Shown: positions 5,166-16,348 of the stretch, piece by piece | Layout of the letters: each line of letters opens with the position of its first letter | Numbering within the stretch: the first letter of the stretch is position 1 | Origin: Akkermansia muciniphila | Lineage (GTDB): Bacteria > Verrucomicrobiota > Kiritimatiellia > RFP12 > UBA1067 | Length of the DNA stretch: 32,142 bases | Assembly: GCA_945870145.1 (NCBI GenBank) | Contig: CAMBQV010000012.1 | Location: forward strand, 1 to 32,142 | Direction: 5' to 3' | Translations under genes and position numbers: made by a program | Notes under the pieces: generated by a model | Database searches by the model: none | Seen by the model: only the letters and a program-made list of their open reading frames with translations | Told to the model about the DNA's origin: nothing

Positions 5166-7655
5166 ATGAACATGATGAAATCTATCTTAGCTGGCCTCTC
5201 AATAGCCCTCACAGGCGCGACCCTGCAGGCGGCAACGATTCCGCTCAACCTGCCTAAGCCGGATAATAAGCCAGTTGACGCCAAGAAGCCGGTGAAGGTC
5301 TATATTCTCGCCGGGCAGTCGAACATGGTTGGCATGGGCGATATCACCGGGGCGCGGCCGGAGTTCCCGACCGTATTCCTCTCGGCTGATCCTGCAGTCA
5401 TCCCGGGTGAAATGTCGGCAGGTTCTGGAAGATCGAAGTCCGCCTGCAAGTGGATCTGGGGAGGCGTCTCTGCACTCGCCAAGCATGGTGTCTACGGCGC
5501 AAAGGCGAGTGTCGGCAGTGAGAAGGTCTCCGTGGCGTTGGGGACGGTATCGGAAAAGTTGCCCGCGCTGAAGCCAGGGAAAACCCTCGGTGTCAGTGCG
5601 GAGATTGACGTGCCGGTCACAGGAACCTACACGATGCATGTTGGATTTGAAGAGAGCACGCATGCTGTTGCGCTACTCGAAGGAAAAGAAGTGTATCGGA
5701 AGGATATTGGCGCGAAGCCGGTTATCACAAAGGTGACACTTGAAGCAGGCAAGAAGTATCCGCTCGCGATCACTTACTTGAAGAGCGGATCAGCGGCGCT
5801 CTGGTTGGAACAGGTTGATTTGGTTGGTAAGGGCGATCTCTTGCCGCTGGCCAAGACGAATCCGATGTTTTCGTACCTGATTGATGATCAAGACAAATGG
5901 ACTGTGCGTAACGACGTCTATTTCCAGGAAGCACGTGTTGCTCCGGAGGGAAAAGGATCTCCGTTGAGTGTAGCGTCCAATAATGGTAAGTCGATCGGGC
6001 CGGAAGTGGGCTTTGGCTTTGTCATGGGAACCTTCCATGATGAGCAGGTTCTGCTCATCAAGACGGCGATGGGTAATCGCGCGTTGGGCTTTGACTTCCG
6101 TCCGCCGTCGAGCGGTTACAAGGTGCCAGCCAGCGAGTGGGAAGGGTTGGAATATCGCTTGATGGTGAAGGGTGTTCGCCAGACGCTCGAAAACATTGAC
6201 AAGGTTGTGCCCGGCTACGCAGGACAGGGCTACGAGATTGCAGGCTTCGGCTGGTTCCAGGGACACAAGGACAGCGGCTCGACAAAGGAAGCGTATGAGA
6301 AGAATCTGGTCAACCTGATCACTGATCTGCGCAAGGAGTTTAAGGCACCGAAGATGAAGGCGGTTGTCGCGACCGTAGGCTTCCATGGCTATCGGATCTC
6401 AAAGGGTCCGTGGAATGGCGTCTGGGAGGCGCAGATGGCTGTCGGTGATCCCAAGCAGCATCCGGAGTTTGCCGGTACCGTGGCCTCTGTGGATACGCGC
6501 GATTTCTGGCGTGAGGTATGCGAGTCACCCCGGGGACAGGATTACCACTACAATCGTAATCCGGAGACCTATCTCTTGGTGGGCGAAGCGATGGGACGCG
6601 CCATGGTGAAGATGCTGGGTGGCGAGGCGGAGGTGATTCCGAAAACAGACCGCGAAGCGAAAACCATGGCTGACATGGCTGCCGAGGCTGCGAAGCCCGT
6701 GCCGACAAAAGAGCAGCAGGCGGCCTCACTTGCAGCGATTAAGCCGATGGTGCTGGACGGGCTCATGCCCGCCTTCGTCAGCAATCCGCGTACACAGCCG
6801 TTGTTGCAGGCCACGCTCAAAGGTGGACCCGCAAAGACTGCAAAAGCGTCGGAATATCTGGATGACGTGATTGATGATGTGGTTGCCTATTATCAGGTCG
6901 CAGGCATTCAGGAGTATGACTGGACTGCTATTGGCGCGAACAGCAAGAACGCGGAGTGGCACTATTTTGGTTTCGATGTGAAGAACAATCCGTACAAGCT
7001 CATGCCTGCAGGCGCGCCTGCCAAGGAGGAGGAAGACAGTTCTGCGCTCGAGACTGCACCTGTGGTCGCCGCTGCGCCTAAGGCGAAGAAGGCTGGCAAA
7101 CCTGAACCCACCTTCACCTTCACGGTGCCTGAGGGTTTGGCAAATTGGACTCAGTCTGATTTTGATGTCAAGAAGGCGGGATGGAAGAGTGGGCCTGCGC
7201 CGTTTAGCATGAAAATCGATGAAAATGTGTCGTCAAACCTGACGTGGCTCGCCAAGTATCCGCTCTATCCATTGAAGCGCCCGATGCCTAAGACGATTGT
7301 CGAAAATGATATCCTGCTGATGCGCAAGACGATTGAGGTGCCGCCGTTGAAGGATGGGTATCGCTATCGTATCGTCGTGGAGGGGAGTATCCACGATAAC
7401 TCCGGCGAAGGGTTCGCGCTGTATGTGAATGGCAAGCTGCTGGTCGAGATCAAGGAAGGCGTGGTAGGTTGGCGTAAACAGGGGATTCGTGGCGTGAAGC
7501 TCGAAAATAGTCTTCTGGAATCCCTCAAGGGTGGAAAGATGACGATTGCGGTCGCCAACTTCCCGATGAACAATTGGAAGCCCGATCATTTCATTCCGTT
7601 CTTCAGGCCACTGAACGTCTGGGTGGAAGAGCAGAAGATACCGGTGCTGCAGTAG
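5166..7655 (+). CDS. Secreted SGNH-type carbohydrate esterase (DUF303/sialate O-acetylesterase) with PA14-like insertion and a C-terminal module shared with the two downstream giants
   Basis: 829 aa; signal peptide; VKVYILAGQSNMVGMGD, GPEVGFGFVMG...LLIKTAMGNRALGFDFRPPSSGY, YEIAGFGWFQGHKDSGS, DYHYNRNPETYLLVGEAMGRAM are DUF303 motifs. Confidence 0.85.
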   Translation: MNMMKSILAGLSIALTGATLQAATIPLNLPKPDNKPVDAKKPVKVYILAGQSNMVGMGDITGARPEFPTVFLSADPAVIPGEMSAGSGRSKSACKWIWGGVSALAKHGVYGAKASVGSEKVSVALGTVSEKLPALKPGKTLGVSAEIDVPVTGTYTMHVGFEESTHAVALLEGKEVYRKDIGAKPVITKVTLEAGKKYPLAITYLKSGSAALWLEQVDLVGKGDLLPLAKTNPMFSYLIDDQDKWTVRNDVYFQEARVAPEGKGSPLSVASNNGKSIGPEVGFGFVMGTFHDEQVLLIKTAMGNRALGFDFRPPSSGYKVPASEWEGLEYRLMVKGVRQTLENIDKVVPGYAGQGYEIAGFGWFQGHKDSGSTKEAYEKNLVNLITDLRKEFKAPKMKAVVATVGFHGYRISKGPWNGVWEAQMAVGDPKQHPEFAGTVASVDTRDFWREVCESPRGQDYHYNRNPETYLLVGEAMGRAMVKMLGGEAEVIPKTDREAKTMADMAAEAAKPVPTKEQQAASLAAIKPMVLDGLMPAFVSNPRTQPLLQATLKGGPAKTAKASEYLDDVIDDVVAYYQVAGIQEYDWTAIGANSKNAEWHYFGFDVKNNPYKLMPAGAPAKEEEDSSALETAPVVAAAPKAKKAGKPEPTFTFTVPEGLANWTQSDFDVKKAGWKSGPAPFSMKIDENVSSNLTWLAKYPLYPLKRPMPKTIVENDILLMRKTIEVPPLKDGYRYRIVVEGSIHDNSGEGFALYVNGKLLVEIKEGVVGWRKQGIRGVKLENSLLESLKGGKMTIAVANFPMNNWKPDHFIPFFRPLNVWVEEQKIPVLQ

Positions 7656-7694
7656 CAGTGGCCAGTTGGCAGTAGCAGTTGGCAGTGGGCAGTG
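7656..7694. repeat. GGCAGT word repeat
   Basis: CAGTGGCCAGTTGGCAGTAGCAGTTGGCAGTGGGCAGTG; the 23-mer AGTTGGCAGTAGCAGTTGGCAGT recurs exactly at 31595-31617. Confidence 0.65.
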
Positions 7695-7763
7695 TCGAGA
7701 GAATCGAAAGATTCGAAAAATTCGAACGAATCGATTCAGTCGATTCAATTGATTCAGTCGAAA
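7695..7763. repeat. ATTCGAA/ATTCAGTCG self-complementary word array
   Basis: GAATCGAAAGATTCGAAAAATTCGAACGAATCGATTCAGTCGATTCAATTGATTCAGTCG. Confidence 0.65.
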
Positions 7764-7765
7764 CG

Positions 7766-7785
7766 GGCGAAGTACTCACTTCGCC
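7766..7785 (+). promoter_or_regulatory. Perfect hairpin just upstream of the RBS of the next gene
   Basis: GGCGAAGT ACTC ACTTCGCC: 8-bp perfect stem, 4-nt loop; AAGGAG RBS follows at about 7798. Confidence 0.5.
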
Positions 7786-7812
7786 TCTTTGTAGTTTAAG
7801 GAGATCACGTTG

Positions 7813-10800
7813 ATGAAGAAAAGAAACATGTTGAAGGTATTGTGTAGCGTAGCCATTTGCGGCGTTGTCGGTCACGCTTTCGCCGCCGAGGGGCTCACGG
7901 GTAAATTTGAGGATCCCTACTACAAGGATTATCCGCTCTTTCACAGTTATCCCAGCGCGGCGGATGCGCGGTATCTGATTGACCATATCGGCCCGATCGG
8001 TATTGGCATTGAATTGCGCCAGCCTGCCTTCACCATGCATCTGATGACCATTGAGAAAGGTTCTCCTGCGGAAGCCACAGGTAAGCTGAAGCCGGGCCAA
8101 ATCATCGAGAGCATCAACGGGAAGGTTCTCAAGGAAGTTGATCCGCGAGCGATCCTGGGGAACCTGATTACGGAGGCCGAAGCCAAGGATGGCGTGATCA
8201 AGCTGATGGTCAAGGCGGATGCCAAGGCAAAGGCTGAAGAGGTCATTGTGAAGATTCCGGTGTTGGGTGCCTACAGTGAAACCGGTCCGATCAACTGCCC
8301 GAAGTCCGAGAAGATCGTGCGTAACTTCGCGGATTTCCTCGCGACACATCCCTGCGGCTGGGGCTCCGCGCTCTTTCTCCTCTCCACGGGTGAAGAGAAG
8401 GATCTCGCTGTGGTCCGCGGCTGGTTCAGTGGCAAGCTTTCAGGCGGCAAGAGCGGGGACTCTCCCTGGGGTATCGGTTACAACGGGCCGGCAGTCTGCG
8501 AATATTATCTGCGCACAGGGGATGCCTCCGTATTGCCGGCGATTAAGAGCATGATGGAGCGGCTGAAGGAGACGATATACAATGGTTCCTGGATGGGTCG
8601 TGGCGGCTGCAACTATGATTACATGGCGGGTGGACACATGAATGCGGCAGGTGTGCACAGCCTTACCTTCCTGCTCCTTGCGAAAGAGTGCGGCGTGGAG
8701 GTGGACGAGCACACCCTGCAATCCTGTCTCTATCATTTCTACCGTTATGCCGGGCACATGAACGTCTCGTATGGCGACGGATTGCCGGAAACTGGTGGCG
8801 TGGACAACGGTAAGAATGGCGGATTAGCCTTTGCCATGGCTGCAGCAGCCTCGCTCATACCGGACGGGGAGAAGTCCGTCTATGCCAAGGCGCGTGACAT
8901 CAGCGCGAACAAGAGTTTCTATACGACCTCCTGGCTCTTCCATGGTCACACGGGCGGTGGTATCGGCGAGTTGTGGCGTGGCTCGGCAGCCGGTCTGCTG
9001 GCGGAGAAGCGTCCTGAGATGTATCGTTCGTTCATGAAGGAACGTCGCTGGATGTATGAGCTGGCCCGTCGTTACGATGGCGCCTTTGGTTGGGCGAGCG
9101 GCTGGAATGTCAACTATGGCACAACAGGGCACGGTGGCGGCACATCCTGGGGCAACTTCATTCCGTTGGTCTACACGGTTCCGCGCAAGCAGCTTCGTAT
9201 TTATGGTGCGCCTCCGACGAAGTATTCCAAAACCTATAAGATCCCCGAGCGTCCGTGGGGTACGGCAGCGGACGAGGTCTTCTTGTCGATACAAGCAGGT
9301 GAACACAAGCCAGGCATGAAGCTTGACTTGTCAAAGGAGACGCTCCCGACGCATGCCTCCTGGCCGATGATACGTCGCCTTGGAGATCCGAAGGTGAGTG
9401 ATGCTGAGTTACTCATGAATGCTTATCACCCCGACAGCACTACCCAAGGGAGTACGGCGGGTAGTATTAGCGGACAAAAGCGCAACCATCTTTTTGTTGA
9501 ACTCCTGAAATCGAAAGACCCGCGCGCACGGTTGGTGGGCATTAAGGCCGTGAGCGGTGAACAGAAGGGTGTGCCTGCGACTGGCGTCAACCTGACGGAT
9601 GAGATCATCACGTTGCTCGGGGGTATGATTGGTGATCCGCAAGAGTCCTGGTGGGTTGTGATGGCGGCGATGGACATGATCAGCCACGCACCTGCTGAAA
9701 AGATTGCGCCTTATTTTGACAGTATCGCCAAGTGGATGAAACATGAGGATTGGTGGTTGCGTCAAGCCGCCTTGAAGGCTGTCACACCTCTTGCTACGGA
9801 TAAAGCGTTCTATCAGAAGATTATGCCCATGGTCGGCGATATGGTCGCGAGCAATACACGCGCCGTTGCTTTGAACCCGCTCGGTGGCATCGTGACGCGC
9901 TTACAGGAAGCTGAGCCGACTGTGCAAAATTCCGCCCTTGAGGAGCTGGCCACGGCCTATAATAAGTTCCCTGCAGCCTTTAATGCGCCTGGCGGGCAGA
10001 ATATGTCGGGCTGTGTTGACTACATGCTGAAGGGAATCGCCCGAAAGATGGCCGACCTTCCCGGTGGCTTTGACAAGCTCTATGAGGTCAGCAAGAAACG
10101 CTTCCCGGATCTTGTCCTTCCACACAAGGATCTTTACATGATGGCAGATGCCAGTAAGTTTGGTCCCAAGGTCAAAGAGGCCTTGAAGCCGATTGTGCTG
10201 GGGTATCTCATGCCGCAATATGTGGCTGCCAATAGCGCGTTGCGTTCCGAGGCGACCAGTGAGCCAGTGAAGGGCAAGCCCAGCGAACCCAAGATGGAAG
10301 GCTTGGTCGATCTCTATGACCGTGTGGGGATGAACCAGTATGACTGGCGCGGGTGTGGTCCCGACCTGACAGAGATCGCATGGCTCTATCACAGCTATGA
10401 TCCTGTTGAGGAGAAGATTTGGGAGCCAGGATGGCGCTATCGTAAAGTCAGTCCACCCAAAGGCATGGAGAATTGGTTCAAACCAGACTTTGACGCCGCT
10501 GTAGCTGGTTGGCAGAGGGGTCGCGCGCCCTTTGGTCAGTTTGGAGGCAAGCTGCCGAAGGAGCCGCAGTCCACCTGTAAGCTCCCCTTCTGCCGGTGCA
10601 GCGAACCCCTGAAGACCTTCTGGGATAAAGAGGTGCTCCTGCTCCAGGCCAAGGTTAAATTCCCTGCATTCAAACAAGGGCATCGTTACAGACTTGTCGT
10701 TGGTGGCCTGTCGCATGTTAATGCCGGTGACGGCTTCGAAATCTATCTCAATGGTAAGCAGGTGTTTCAACGTGATGATGGTGTCGGCAAGCGCGCAGGG

Positions 10801-11394
10801 GATAAGCCGATCTGCCTCACCATTGACAAGACCTTATGGTCCGAGTTTCAGAAAGAGGTCGTCATTGCGGCCAAGGGCTTCCTGCCCATCCCTGGCGGAA
10901 AGCGTTCACCGGGCGTGAAGAAGCAGCACTTCTCAATCTTCCTTCAGGAGATGGAGGTCCCGCCGATCACGGACGAGATGATTGAAAAGGGTAAGACTCT
11001 TCAGCCGATGCTCACCAGCGCATGGCAACTGAGCAGGGATGAGGGCGACCGTCTTTTCTATGACGGTGAGTTTGTCGCCAACAAGGCGCTTGTCGGCGAC
11101 TGGATTCAGGTCTCGCAAGTTGCCAGCGTGGAGGCCTTCAAGCCGGGCGAGGCAACCACTGTACCGAAGGCCGTCGCACTCCAGAAACTGACGCTCAAGC
11201 CGGATGGTAAGACGGATCAGTCGCACCTTACGTGGTCAGGTGATACACTGATGGAGCTACAGAAACTACAAGCTCTCAAGATGACCCTCGAGAAGGTCGG
11301 CGGTCAGGAATATCTCTTCGTTGAATGTGGCGGCTTCGACCGTAAGCTGCCAGAAGATTGGAAGACCCCCTATAACGTGATGAAGCGCAAATAA
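7813..11394 (+). CDS. Giant secreted PDZ / alpha-alpha toroid-like / HEAT protein (DUF6288-like), copy 1
   Basis: ORF begins at TTG 7810; ATG 7813 preferred. Signal peptide; PDZ-like IEKGSPAEATGKLKPGQIIESINGKVL; repeated toroid-like region with HGHTGGGIGELWR; HEAT-like FVELLKSKDPRARLVGIKAV. The DUF6288 label is from memory. Confidence 0.75.
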   Translation: MKKRNMLKVLCSVAICGVVGHAFAAEGLTGKFEDPYYKDYPLFHSYPSAADARYLIDHIGPIGIGIELRQPAFTMHLMTIEKGSPAEATGKLKPGQIIESINGKVLKEVDPRAILGNLITEAEAKDGVIKLMVKADAKAKAEEVIVKIPVLGAYSETGPINCPKSEKIVRNFADFLATHPCGWGSALFLLSTGEEKDLAVVRGWFSGKLSGGKSGDSPWGIGYNGPAVCEYYLRTGDASVLPAIKSMMERLKETIYNGSWMGRGGCNYDYMAGGHMNAAGVHSLTFLLLAKECGVEVDEHTLQSCLYHFYRYAGHMNVSYGDGLPETGGVDNGKNGGLAFAMAAAASLIPDGEKSVYAKARDISANKSFYTTSWLFHGHTGGGIGELWRGSAAGLLAEKRPEMYRSFMKERRWMYELARRYDGAFGWASGWNVNYGTTGHGGGTSWGNFIPLVYTVPRKQLRIYGAPPTKYSKTYKIPERPWGTAADEVFLSIQAGEHKPGMKLDLSKETLPTHASWPMIRRLGDPKVSDAELLMNAYHPDSTTQGSTAGSISGQKRNHLFVELLKSKDPRARLVGIKAVSGEQKGVPATGVNLTDEIITLLGGMIGDPQESWWVVMAAMDMISHAPAEKIAPYFDSIAKWMKHEDWWLRQAALKAVTPLATDKAFYQKIMPMVGDMVASNTRAVALNPLGGIVTRLQEAEPTVQNSALEELATAYNKFPAAFNAPGGQNMSGCVDYMLKGIARKMADLPGGFDKLYEVSKKRFPDLVLPHKDLYMMADASKFGPKVKEALKPIVLGYLMPQYVAANSALRSEATSEPVKGKPSEPKMEGLVDLYDRVGMNQYDWRGCGPDLTEIAWLYHSYDPVEEKIWEPGWRYRKVSPPKGMENWFKPDFDAAVAGWQRGRAPFGQFGGKLPKEPQSTCKLPFCRCSEPLKTFWDKEVLLLQAKVKFPAFKQGHRYRLVVGGLSHVNAGDGFEIYLNGKQVFQRDDGVGKRAGDKPICLTIDKTLWSEFQKEVVIAAKGFLPIPGGKRSPGVKKQHFSIFLQEMEVPPITDEMIEKGKTLQPMLTSAWQLSRDEGDRLFYDGEFVANKALVGDWIQVSQVASVEAFKPGEATTVPKAVALQKLTLKPDGKTDQSHLTWSGDTLMELQKLQALKMTLEKVGGQEYLFVECGGFDRKLPEDWKTPYNVMKRK

Positions 11395-11411
11395 GAATTA
11401 AAGAGAAAATA

Positions 11412-14400
11412 ATGAGCAAAAATTTGATTAGTTACTTAGGTCTTTCAGTGTTGATGGTTTCAATAGTGCAGGCTGCTGAGAAGCAGTCCGGACCCGAGAA
11501 GAAAGACCCTTTCTATACGAGTCCTGGGCTCTTTTCCACGCGTCCGAGTTCCATAACCACCCTGGTCCAGTTTGTGGACCGCTTCGGTCCGGTTGGTATC
11601 GGCATTGAGCTTCATCCCCCGGCCTTTGTGATGAAGGTGAAGAATGTCGAGGCTGGTTCGCCCGCAGAAGCCACAGGCAAGCTCAAGGCTGGTCAGATCA
11701 TCGAGACGATCAACGGACAGAAACTGAAGGATATTGACCCTCGCGTTCAATTGGGAAGTATCGTAACAGCAGCGGAAGCGACCGACGGACGCGTGGTCTT
11801 TGCGCTGAGGGATAAAGAAGATAGCCCCGTTCAAGAGGTCGTAGTCACCATCCCTGTCTTGGGAGCGTACAGTAAGACGTGGCCGCTGAACTGTCCGAAG
11901 TCGGACAAGATCGTCCGTGGCCTCGCAGACAGGCTTGCTAAAGAGGGCTGGGATGGCAATGTCGGAATGAACGGCTCGCGAATGCTATTCTTGTTGTCCA
12001 CGGGCGAGGAGCAGGATCTGGAGGTTGTTCGAGGTTGGGTAAAGAAGACGGTCGAAAAGAATCCGAACTTTGGAGATGGCACTTTAGCGTATCAATGGTC
12101 TGTTGGCTGGGGCGCCCCGGCGCTGGCGGAGTATTATCTGCGGACAGGCGATGCGTCCGTGTTGCCGCTCATGAAAAAAATCACCGCTGCCGTGAGGAAG
12201 ACGATGTATCACGATGGATGGGCCGGACGCGGGATGGCCGGTCATCACATGGGTCTTGCCGGAACCTCCACGCTGACCTTTCTCTTGCTGGCCAAGCAGT
12301 GCGGTGTTGAGATGGATGAAGGCATGTTGCAGACGGCATTACAACACTATTACCGCTTTTCCGGCAAAGGGACCAATCCCTACATGGATGAACATCCGGA
12401 GCTTACGTTCACGGATAACGGACGTAACGGGATGCTTGCCTTTTCCATGAAGGCTGCTGCGGCGTTACTGCCAGACGAGAAGAACGACATCTACGAGCAG
12501 GCGAGTGATATCGCGGCTCTGCACAGTTTTCACTCTGCGTCTTACATGTTGCACGGTCATACCGGCGGCGGTATCGGCGAGGTCTGGCGTAGCGCGGCCA
12601 TGGGCTTGCTGTGCGATAAAAAGCCTAATCAGTATCGCGATTTTCTGACGGAGCGTGTCTGGTGGTATGACCTGACGCGCAGATATGACGGTTCGTTTGG
12701 CGTGCTGGGCGGCGGAGGTTATGACGGGAAGAATGGTGGCTGGTGCGGGCCGACGATCGGGATGACCTATACCGCGCCGCGCAAGCAGCTTTGTATTCTC
12801 GGAGCGCCCCGTAGTAAATTTGCTAAATACTATACGATCCCTGAACGTCCGTGGGGTGTGTTGGCGGATGATGATTTCTTGAAGTTTGAGGCTGCTGCGG
12901 ATGAAAACGGGAACGTAAAAAAATATGATGCTGAAACACTTGCGAATGACTCAGGGGTGGCCTTCCATCGCAGGATGGGAACTGCGAACATCAGCGATGA
13001 AGTATTGATGGAATATGCTCGTCATCCTCAGCATGTCTTCAGGTTAGCCGTTTCCGACAAGATTTACAAGGAACGGCGGTTCCATTTAATTCCTGTGCTC
13101 CTGAAGTCCAAAGATGCGCGCGTCCGTTACACAGGCGTCTTTGCGATGAAGAAACCGCGTGTCAGCTCGATCAAGGAAAATTGTGATCCGGGATTTCCGA
13201 TGGAGAAGATGACCGATGATGTGAAGGCGCGTCTCTACGAGATGCTGGAGGATCCGAAGGAGTCATGGTTTGTGGTAGATCACATCCTCGGGCTGATGAG
13301 CCGGCGTGAGGCTGCAGAGCTGGCTCCGCATATCGACCGCATCATTTATTTTTTAGGGCATGACGAGCAGTGGCTGCATCAGTCGGCCCTTGAAGCCATC
13401 ATTCCGTTGGCAATCGACAAGCGAACCAGCAAAAAGGCCTTGGCGGCCATTGAGCAATATGTGCCGAACTTTATCCGGAGTCCCTCGACACTTAAGGGGT
13501 TGGCCGCCAAGCTGTCCGAGGCTGACTCGGAAATACAGAAGGCTGGACTGGATACGCTGGGCAAAGTATATTTAGCCTATCCTGGGAAAAATGCCAATCC
13601 ACCGGGTGGACTGCATCCGCAGTCCGCAGGCTGGTATCTGGATACAGTCGCAGTGGCGATCAGTTCAATGCCAGGTGGATTTGAAAAGCTCTTTGTCGTA
13701 TCGCAGAAGCGTTACCCCAATTTGGCTCTGGCGCATAGTCAGACCTTCTTGAGCACATCAGGCAAAGATCAATATGGCGACACGCTGCAGAAGGCGGTCA
13801 ATGAGGCGATCCTGAATGACCTGATGCCAAAATTTATTGTGAGTAACCGTCAGCAGCTTCAGGTCGATGCCGCAGGGGAGAAGATCCAGCCTGCGGTCAG
13901 TACGTTGGGCGGAGGTGGAATGAGGCAAGGTCTCTCGGATCTCTACAGCAAGGCGGGCGTTAAAGATTACGACTGGCAGGGCTTCGGTCCGAAACGGGAT
14001 GAGATCCTCTGGGACTATTTCAGTTTCGACCCCGAGGAGAAGCAGAACTGGGAAGGCGCTGAACCCCGCTTCCGCAAGGTGAAGTTGCCCGCTGAAATGG
14101 ATAAATGGATGACGAAGGAGTTTGATGCGAAGAAGGCCGGATGGAAACAGGGAAGGGCTCCGATCGCAAGTATAGCGGGTGCGTTGAAACCGCAGTCGTC
14201 CGAGTGTACCATGTCGTTCTGCAGGTGCGGCGATCAGCCCAACACGTTATGGGAGAAGGAAGCTCTTCTCCTGAGGAGCGTATTCAAAGTTCCCGAGATC
14301 AAGGAGGGGCATCGTTATCGCCTCTTGTTGGGTGGCCGTAGCCATGTAGGTGCCGGCGATGGTTATGAAATTTACTTTAACGGCAAAAAGGTATTTGACG

Positions 14401-15041
14401 CCCCGCAGGGAACTGGCAGACGGGATGGCGGATCACCGAAGGGGTATCTGCTACCGAAGGCGATGATGAAGGATTTGAGTGGTAAAGAGCTGGTGGTCGG
14501 CGTGAAGACCTTCCTGACGAAGCATCCGAGGAGCGGTGAAAAACGGGGTTACTTCACGCTCTTCATGGAGGAGATGAAGGTTCCGCCGTTGGAAGGCGAG
14601 AAACTTCGGGAGGCGATGCAACGTATCCCGATGTTCTCCGCGGACTGGCAAGCGCTGCAGGATCCGGAGAGCGAGGTCGATCCGGACGATGGCAAGTTTT
14701 CATACGATGGCAAGTTTAAGCCGAATAATCTTGTGGTGGGCGATTGGAAGGTTGTCGGCTATCTGGCGGATGGTGATGATCTTGCCAGCGTGAAGCCGCT
14801 GAGCAATAAAATACGCCCACTCTTCACGGCCATCAGTTTCAAGGAGAATGGCAAGACCGAATCACCGGATCGTGTCTGGTCCGGTGACATCCTCATGGAG
14901 CTGAATACTTCTCAGGCACTCCGGATCACAGCCAAAAAGATGAACGGCGAAGAGGTGCTACTCATCGAGAACGGCGGCTTCAATGTCAAGGGCGGCGCCG
15001 ACTGGAAGGCACCTCTGCTGGTGCTTAAGCGGAAGATGTAA
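11412..15041 (+). CDS. Giant secreted PDZ / alpha-alpha toroid-like / HEAT protein (DUF6288-like), copy 2
   Basis: 1209 aa; collinear with the upstream gene: VEAGSPAEATGKLKAGQIIETINGQKL, PVLGAYSKTWPLNCPKSDKIVRGLAD, HGHTGGGIGEVWRSAAMGLL, IPERPWGVLADDDF. Confidence 0.75.
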   Translation: MSKNLISYLGLSVLMVSIVQAAEKQSGPEKKDPFYTSPGLFSTRPSSITTLVQFVDRFGPVGIGIELHPPAFVMKVKNVEAGSPAEATGKLKAGQIIETINGQKLKDIDPRVQLGSIVTAAEATDGRVVFALRDKEDSPVQEVVVTIPVLGAYSKTWPLNCPKSDKIVRGLADRLAKEGWDGNVGMNGSRMLFLLSTGEEQDLEVVRGWVKKTVEKNPNFGDGTLAYQWSVGWGAPALAEYYLRTGDASVLPLMKKITAAVRKTMYHDGWAGRGMAGHHMGLAGTSTLTFLLLAKQCGVEMDEGMLQTALQHYYRFSGKGTNPYMDEHPELTFTDNGRNGMLAFSMKAAAALLPDEKNDIYEQASDIAALHSFHSASYMLHGHTGGGIGEVWRSAAMGLLCDKKPNQYRDFLTERVWWYDLTRRYDGSFGVLGGGGYDGKNGGWCGPTIGMTYTAPRKQLCILGAPRSKFAKYYTIPERPWGVLADDDFLKFEAAADENGNVKKYDAETLANDSGVAFHRRMGTANISDEVLMEYARHPQHVFRLAVSDKIYKERRFHLIPVLLKSKDARVRYTGVFAMKKPRVSSIKENCDPGFPMEKMTDDVKARLYEMLEDPKESWFVVDHILGLMSRREAAELAPHIDRIIYFLGHDEQWLHQSALEAIIPLAIDKRTSKKALAAIEQYVPNFIRSPSTLKGLAAKLSEADSEIQKAGLDTLGKVYLAYPGKNANPPGGLHPQSAGWYLDTVAVAISSMPGGFEKLFVVSQKRYPNLALAHSQTFLSTSGKDQYGDTLQKAVNEAILNDLMPKFIVSNRQQLQVDAAGEKIQPAVSTLGGGGMRQGLSDLYSKAGVKDYDWQGFGPKRDEILWDYFSFDPEEKQNWEGAEPRFRKVKLPAEMDKWMTKEFDAKKAGWKQGRAPIASIAGALKPQSSECTMSFCRCGDQPNTLWEKEALLLRSVFKVPEIKEGHRYRLLLGGRSHVGAGDGYEIYFNGKKVFDAPQGTGRRDGGSPKGYLLPKAMMKDLSGKELVVGVKTFLTKHPRSGEKRGYFTLFMEEMKVPPLEGEKLREAMQRIPMFSADWQALQDPESEVDPDDGKFSYDGKFKPNNLVVGDWKVVGYLADGDDLASVKPLSNKIRPLFTAISFKENGKTESPDRVWSGDILMELNTSQALRITAKKMNGEEVLLIENGGFNVKGGADWKAPLLVLKRKM

Positions 15042-15115
15042 TATACAAGCTAAGGAATTTTGTCCAGCCATGTCAGTGAAGGCCGGCGTGGACGTTAATG
15101 AAAAAGGGGGATGAG

Positions 15116-16348
15116 ATGAAAAAGGTAAATGTATCCAGGAGGGCGTTTCTAAAAGTGACGGGGGCGGCGGTCGCATTGCCCAATATTATTACATCCAGTG
15201 CGCTGGGCGCGAACGGTAGACCGCCAGCAAGCGAGCGGATCGTCATGGCCGGCATCGGCATGGGCGGCCAGGGCTCAGGCGATCTGCGGCAGTTCATGGG
15301 GGATCCCCGGATCCAGGTGGTGGCGGTCTGTGACGTCAAGAATCAGAATCTTGAGCGGGGCTTGAGCACCGTGAATGCTCATTATAAGAACAAGGACTGC
15401 AAGCCCTATGTCGATTACCGCGAGGTGATCTCGCGTAAGGATATCGATATGGTGATGTGTGCGACACCGGATCATATGCATGCGCAAATTTCAATCGACG
15501 CGATGAAGAGCGGTAAAGATGTGTATTGCGAAAAACCCCTGACGCTGACCATCGCCGAGGGACGCAAGATGGTCGACACCGCACGCCGGTACGGACGCGT
15601 TCTCTCCTCCGGCAGTCAGCGGGTCATCGGTGACTTCGGTGCCCTGGCCTGTGCGGCCCGGAGTGGCAAATACGGTAATATTCTCGAAACGTACGCGACG
15701 CCCGGCGGTCCTCCGCGGCACTGTTATTTGCCTGGCGAGCCGATTCCGCCAAACACGATTAATTGGGACTTGTGGTTGGGACCGGCGCCGATGGTGCCGT
15801 ATCATCCCTTCCGTTGTGGGCAGGCCTATGGGCTCGGTGGGCAGGGGTTTCGTTCCTGGTACGACTACTCCGGCGGTATGATGACCGACTGGGGCGGACA
15901 CAAATTCGGTGCCGTGCTGCACGGCATGGGGCTGGATCATACAGGGCCCACGGAAATTCTTCCGCCCGATGGCGGGGAGAATCAGTACCTCACCTATGTC
16001 TTTGCCAATGGCATGAAGCTGCACGTAGGCGGTGGCGGCCCGAAGTACATCTGCGAAAAGGGTGAGGCAACGCCTTTACGCGAGTTCAAGGTTCCGCCGG
16101 GCTTGCGTTGGTATGAGGATGGCGCCAACACGCCGATCAAGGATTTGGTGAATTGCGTGATCTCTCGGAAGCGGCCGTTCCAGGACGTGGAGTATGCCCA
16201 CCGTACGGCGACGGTCTGCCATTTGGGCAATATCTGTTACAGTCTGAACCGGAAGCTCAAGTGGGATCCAGTGAAAGAAGATTTCATCGGCGACCCGGAA
16301 GCCAGCAGATTGGTGGACCGTCCGCGGCGCGGACCTTGGCAAATTTAA
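15116..16348 (+). CDS. Gfo/Idh/MocA family oxidoreductase with Tat signal
   Basis: ORF from 15098; ATG 15116 has the better RBS (GGGGGATGAG). VSRRAFLKVTGAAVALP twin-arginine signal; CATPDHMHAQISIDAMKSGKDVYCEKPLTLTIAEGRKMV; GGMMTDWGGHKFGA. Confidence 0.92.
   Translation: MKKVNVSRRAFLKVTGAAVALPNIITSSALGANGRPPASERIVMAGIGMGGQGSGDLRQFMGDPRIQVVAVCDVKNQNLERGLSTVNAHYKNKDCKPYVDYREVISRKDIDMVMCATPDHMHAQISIDAMKSGKDVYCEKPLTLTIAEGRKMVDTARRYGRVLSSGSQRVIGDFGALACAARSGKYGNILETYATPGGPPRHCYLPGEPIPPNTINWDLWLGPAPMVPYHPFRCGQAYGLGGQGFRSWYDYSGGMMTDWGGHKFGAVLHGMGLDHTGPTEILPPDGGENQYLTYVFANGMKLHVGGGGPKYICEKGEATPLREFKVPPGLRWYEDGANTPIKDLVNCVISRKRPFQDVEYAHRTATVCHLGNICYSLNRKLKWDPVKEDFIGDPEASRLVDRPRRGPWQI

Follow-up and report, generated by a model that had tools for sequence, protein, structure and literature searches.

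A jelly-roll-type module shared, apparently more than once, by SASA esterases and giant DUF6288 proteins

Sequence comparisons and trees indicate that two unrelated protein families, the SASA esterases and the giant proteins defined by the DUF6288 domain (PF19805), have come to share a jelly-roll type of domain at least twice independently. One form of this domain (type A) is carried by three neighbouring genes of the window, by which we mean the whole stretch of 32,142 nucleotides analysed here; the other (type B) recurs in the same two families at a different place in the esterase chain. Both the jelly-roll fold and its occurrence in esterases have been described before; the twice-over sharing with DUF6288 giants is new to us.

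The three genes of the window, P0001 (5166-7655), P0002 (7813-11394) and P0003 (11412-15041), lie in the same direction on the + strand, and all three products have signal-peptide-like N-termini by a simple hydrophobicity rule. P0001 is a member of the SASA/SGNH family PF03629 (58.2 bits against a cut-off of 24.8, E 1.2e-15), with a weak PA14-like insert and a C-terminal type A module. By motif, its Ser block GQSN (5313-5327; GQSNM at residue 50) and its His block DYHYN (6540-6554; residue 459) both stand ahead of the module, which comprises a helical lead-in (6732-6923, placed by homology, coordinates and helices in the model) and a jelly roll (6948-7652, placed by homology, model and Foldseek). 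P0002 and P0003, the two giants, have the same architecture: a PDZ domain at the start, DUF6288, HEAT-like repeats (faint in sequence searches, evident in the model), the module and an all-beta tail that the esterase does not have. Both are clear members of PF19805 (401.9 and 363 bits against a cut-off of 26.3; E 4.6e-120 and 2.9e-108), with the DUF6288 domain itself at 8032-9210 (1.5e-121) in giant 1 and at 11628-12806 (9.6e-110) in giant 2. The AlphaFold2 model of P0002, built from 22 sequences with a mean pLDDT of 81, shows beta elements at residues 53-147, helical hairpins to ~460, repeats to ~763, helices at 785-837, the strands of the jelly roll at 856-1048 and a final beta domain from 1095. 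Together with profile and BLASTP matches, this model places the lead-in of giant 1 at 10177-10347, its jelly roll at 10372-10968 and its tail at 11050-11391; the equivalent parts of giant 2, placed by coordinates, profile and BLASTP, are at 13791-13976, 14001-14591 and 14694-15038. An open frame of 255 aa at another locus (L019:3588-4352) seems to be a remnant consisting of the end of a module and the tail. Beside the cluster, the window also contains a Gfo/Idh oxidoreductase with a TAT-like signal (15098-16348) and two xylose-isomerase-type TIM barrels (217-1946), a combination that recalls loci for the oxidative cleavage of sugars; a similarity to NCBIfam BT_2158_fam scored under the cut-off of that family. 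The secreted-like P0007 (18790-21228, 812 aa) gave no significant Pfam match; by eye it resembles a glycoside hydrolase with a TIM barrel and beta domains.

The C-terminal part of P0001 matches both giants in BLASTP (residues 504-766 against P0002, E=3.5e-25; residues 479-829 against P0003, E=7.5e-28), and by sequence the module of ~270-330 aa is homologous in the three proteins, far beyond chance. This bears out the central claim of an initial annotation of this DNA, that one homologous module is joined to two unrelated N-terminal machineries; the twelve landmark peptides on which it relied were all found, at 6738-7442, 10183-10764 and 13797-14393. Several of its details need revision. Three consecutive genes do carry the module, in two architectures rather than three independent ones, since P0002 and P0003 are full-length paralogues (41% identity across 1,235 columns). 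What had been described as a single unit is shared, but it is bipartite, with the helical lead-in followed by the jelly roll, and relatives have the jelly roll without the full lead-in. It ends the esterase, whereas the giants run ~115-150 aa beyond it into the small tail. Finally, the description of the giants as PDZ/HEAT proteins is accurate for those parts and undersells the central DUF6288 domain, which it left unnamed and which defines the family.

The model of the module is of low confidence (pLDDT 49), and its top Foldseek matches are almost all GH2 and GH35 beta-galactosidases and beta-glucuronidases. Matches to Pfam profiles of the GH2/beta-galactosidase type all fall below the gathering cut-off: Glyco_hydro_2_N (PF02837) at 0.011 for type A, and BetaGal_ABD2 (PF13364) at 0.0013 and Bac_rhamnosid_N at 0.0047 for the type B jelly roll. 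A search of the module profile against the PDB found no solved structure at a convincing E-value. From the weak model and the sub-threshold matches, several of them independent, we infer that the module is an alpha-helical lead-in joined to a jelly roll of the GH2/beta-galactosidase (galactose-binding-like) kind. A second weak match of the module profile, within the SGNH domain of P0001 (residues 323-410), was judged to be a chance alignment. The Cys-rich loop C-x(3-6)-C-x-C, common among the relatives, does not define type A, as it is present in only 31 of 56 copies and absent from P0001.

One scan of genome contigs found type A relatives at 46 loci in Verrucomicrobiota, Planctomycetota and Kiritimatiellota. 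The distribution is patchy, since the module was present in only 2 of 97 sampled genomes of the window's GTDB family, both of one genus. In a tree of 58 module rows a single branch with support 100/100 splits the esterase copies from the giant copies. An adjoining DUF6288 gene accompanies 11 of 33 type A esterases (10 at the 32 loci, and that of the window), and the closest kin of giant 2 (L011:747-4424) sits immediately before an esterase of P0001's kind. Most module-bearing members have signal-like N-termini by the hydrophobicity rule. Among the 86 neighbour proteins scanned with Pfam, the 25 most frequent of 73 families include SASA esterases (18), sulfatases (5), GH29 (4), GH95 (4) and Gfo/Idh proteins (2), a set that fits with polysaccharide degradation.

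The type B jelly roll is ~25% identical to type A. In the esterases it is inserted between the Ser part of the SGNH domain and the His block; in the giants it is C-terminal, after the HEAT part (L011:8456-11584, L059:2410-6591). The genome of the window has a type B esterase at L008/L057 (contig C32), and so does its sister genome (L058). In local alignments the type B esterase and giant copies are 42-52% identical to each other and 24-38% identical to type A. In a survey of 35 genomes, in which only strong matches were fetched and classified, all 40 classified proteins belonged to the same two families (17 SASA esterases and 23 DUF6288 giants), and 7 of the 17 esterases adjoin a type B giant (pairs L093, L095, L096, L097, L101, L105 and L114). 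Two of the type B proteins have further parts: the giant L059:2410-6591 carries an additional C-terminal DUF6807 domain (2.3e-60), and the esterase L100:1136-4720 an additional N-terminal part of ~600 aa that matched no Pfam family.

The similarities follow module type and not host. Mean identities are 42% between the esterase and giant copies of type A (EA and GA) and 46% between those of type B (EB and GB), against 26% between EA and EB and 24% between GA and GB. A tree that unites all esterase modules in one clade was rejected (delta lnL 202, AU p=3e-43), ruling out one sharing event followed by divergence of A and B. A clade of the EA and EB esterase domains, to the exclusion of their module-less kin, was likewise rejected (delta lnL 164, p=2e-51), in a tree that has long branches and in which the EB domains had been pieced together by a rough rule. 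In the DUF6288 tree, GA, GB and a small third set, Gx, group together, apart from the module-less members sampled; the Gx giants (L121:1228-4221, L122:122-3118 and L123:3524-6739) carry a jelly roll of their own type. The simplest account of these sequence relationships would be that such a domain was present early in the giants and came to be shared, on separate occasions, by two lineages of esterases. A quick tree placed EB within GB, yet a GB clade was not rejected (p=0.71), so that neither direction of transfer between giant and esterase is established.

DUF6288 itself gave up to 38 matches per genome (G127, among genomes G000-G129), and open frames of 4,472, 3,532 and 3,342 aa carry it in G124 and G126. 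A literature search found no paper naming DUF6288 and no characterised member. In the model the domain possibly forms helical hairpins, perhaps as an alpha/alpha toroid. A Foldseek search with the whole giant was dominated by HEAT/armadillo proteins and was uninformative for DUF6288, and in a profile search against the PDB the matches listed fall on the PDZ part. In the window's own genome, a frame of 1,307 aa on the - strand of contig C28 (L056:9037-12957) naturally joins a CE20-like domain to PDZ-DUF6288 and a further C-terminal jelly roll; its N-terminal 600 aa match CE20-type esterases (2e-31) and have lost the GQSN motif, and an intact CE20-type esterase gene (L056:13089-14978) adjoins it.

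That the same two families share such a domain twice independently suggests a polysaccharide target common to both. We lean towards reading the module as a substrate-recognition module that places esterase and giant on one polysaccharide, and not as a dedicated dock between the two. In the esterase it would shape or feed the SGNH active site, as the ancillary domain of CE20 esterases does, and so help acetylated polysaccharide to reach it; in the giants it would bring the secreted DUF6288/HEAT body to that polysaccharide. Both proteins might then act on a shared substrate, either periplasmic or at the cell surface. The common extracytoplasmic system proposed in the initial annotation gains plausibility from the signal-peptide-like N-termini, the recurrent gene adjacency and the second sharing. 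The homology, the architectures, the two separate sharings and the frequent adjacency of the genes are shown; glycan binding by the module, one ligand for both proteins, their partnership and any role of DUF6288, as enzyme or as scaffold, are what we infer. As counterpoints to recognition, only a minority of esterases adjoin a giant, where any adjacency probability depends on rough background rates set by hand, and jelly rolls of the GH2 type may have no more than a structural role. We are rather doubtful of a more far-reaching version, in which esterase and giant would be obligate partners in a polysaccharide-degrading machine, selection having driven the gain of matched domains twice, by a C-terminal and an inserted route, and module type A or B would specify the pairing.

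We think dedicated docking rather unlikely; here the modules would bind to one another, or to a scaffold protein common to both, and so join esterase and giant, with HEAT and PDZ as the scaffold. The two independent sharings, the adjacency of the genes and the natural fusion of an esterase-like domain to DUF6288 are all in keeping with it, as is the correlation of esterase and giant module distances in adjacent pairs (Mantel r=0.40, p=0.017 for type A; r=0.96, p=0.0008 for type B), although such a correlation is expected of any linked genes inherited together. Against docking, no DUF6288 match at E<=1e-10 was found in five genomes that have a type A esterase (G102, G104, G107, G110 and G111; their completeness is not stated, though one of them, that of L024, comes from a record titled 'chromosome'), and in at least one genome, G125, the single type A module match is borne by a giant. 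The initial annotation had listed docking with glycan binding and surface assembly; these genomes demote docking as the main reading, and glycan binding, suggested by context and a carbohydrate-type fold, is kept.

We judge it unlikely, more so than docking, that there is no shared function and that a common mobile beta-sandwich was recombined between neighbouring genes and merely tolerated by both families. GH2-type jelly rolls are indeed widespread, and the type B profile has weak matches in GH2-like enzymes, in their C-terminal jelly roll, and in a lamin-tail-type protein (assigned by eye); but the close subtypes A and B are confined to these two families among the classified proteins, the module is retained across three phyla, and the tree divides esterase copies sharply from giant copies, without any trace of continuing exchange. 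A signal for export or surface sorting, placed C-terminally and common to secreted proteins, which the position of the module in the window proteins and the signal-like N-termini of most members might suggest, is very improbable, as the type B esterase jelly roll is internal and ahead of the His block, further domains follow the module in the giants and some relatives (the tail; DUF6807 in L059), and a sorting tag would be smaller and less restricted in its hosts.

Through its link to acetylesterases, DUF6288, a large and uncharacterised domain present in multiple copies in many of the genomes searched, gains a first testable functional context. Types A and B also provide two parallel natural cases in which to study why an enzyme and a partner not homologous to it should have an accessory domain in common. 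Within the DUF6288 family at large many genes lack the module, and the giants that bear it form one clade set apart from the module-less members sampled.

Among known domains, the jelly rolls of GH2 and GH35 enzymes (PF02837, PF13364) are alike by fold search and sub-threshold profile matches; they differ in their host proteins, and the module adds a helical lead-in and scores under the Pfam gathering cut-offs. The nearest known arrangement is that of the CE20 esterases, whose ancillary domain (X448) is reported to be a GH2-like beta-sandwich, set into the SGNH domain by way of an alpha-helical linker, and to form part of the active-site cleft (PMC12313940), as in the structures XacXaeA (7KMM), Fl8CE20_II (9H4U) and PpCE20_II (9EGA) (PMC12313940, PMC8245568). 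A CE20-type acetylesterase without the module, P0004 (2081-5035, + strand; phmmer to 9EGA, 1.9e-63), lies upstream of P0001. No sequence match was found between the modules and the CE20 structures, and in phmmer the esterase region of P0001 matched only 1ZMB-type esterases, weakly, and not the CE20 structures; the esterase domains studied here may lie nearer to 1ZMB-type acetylxylan esterases. As in CE20, an SGNH esterase bears a beta-sandwich, here probably GH2-like, and the type B esterases also insert it ahead of the catalytic His. Unlike the CE20 domain, that of P0001 is C-terminal, after the His block and outside the SGNH domain, and the modules described here are also carried by DUF6288 giants.
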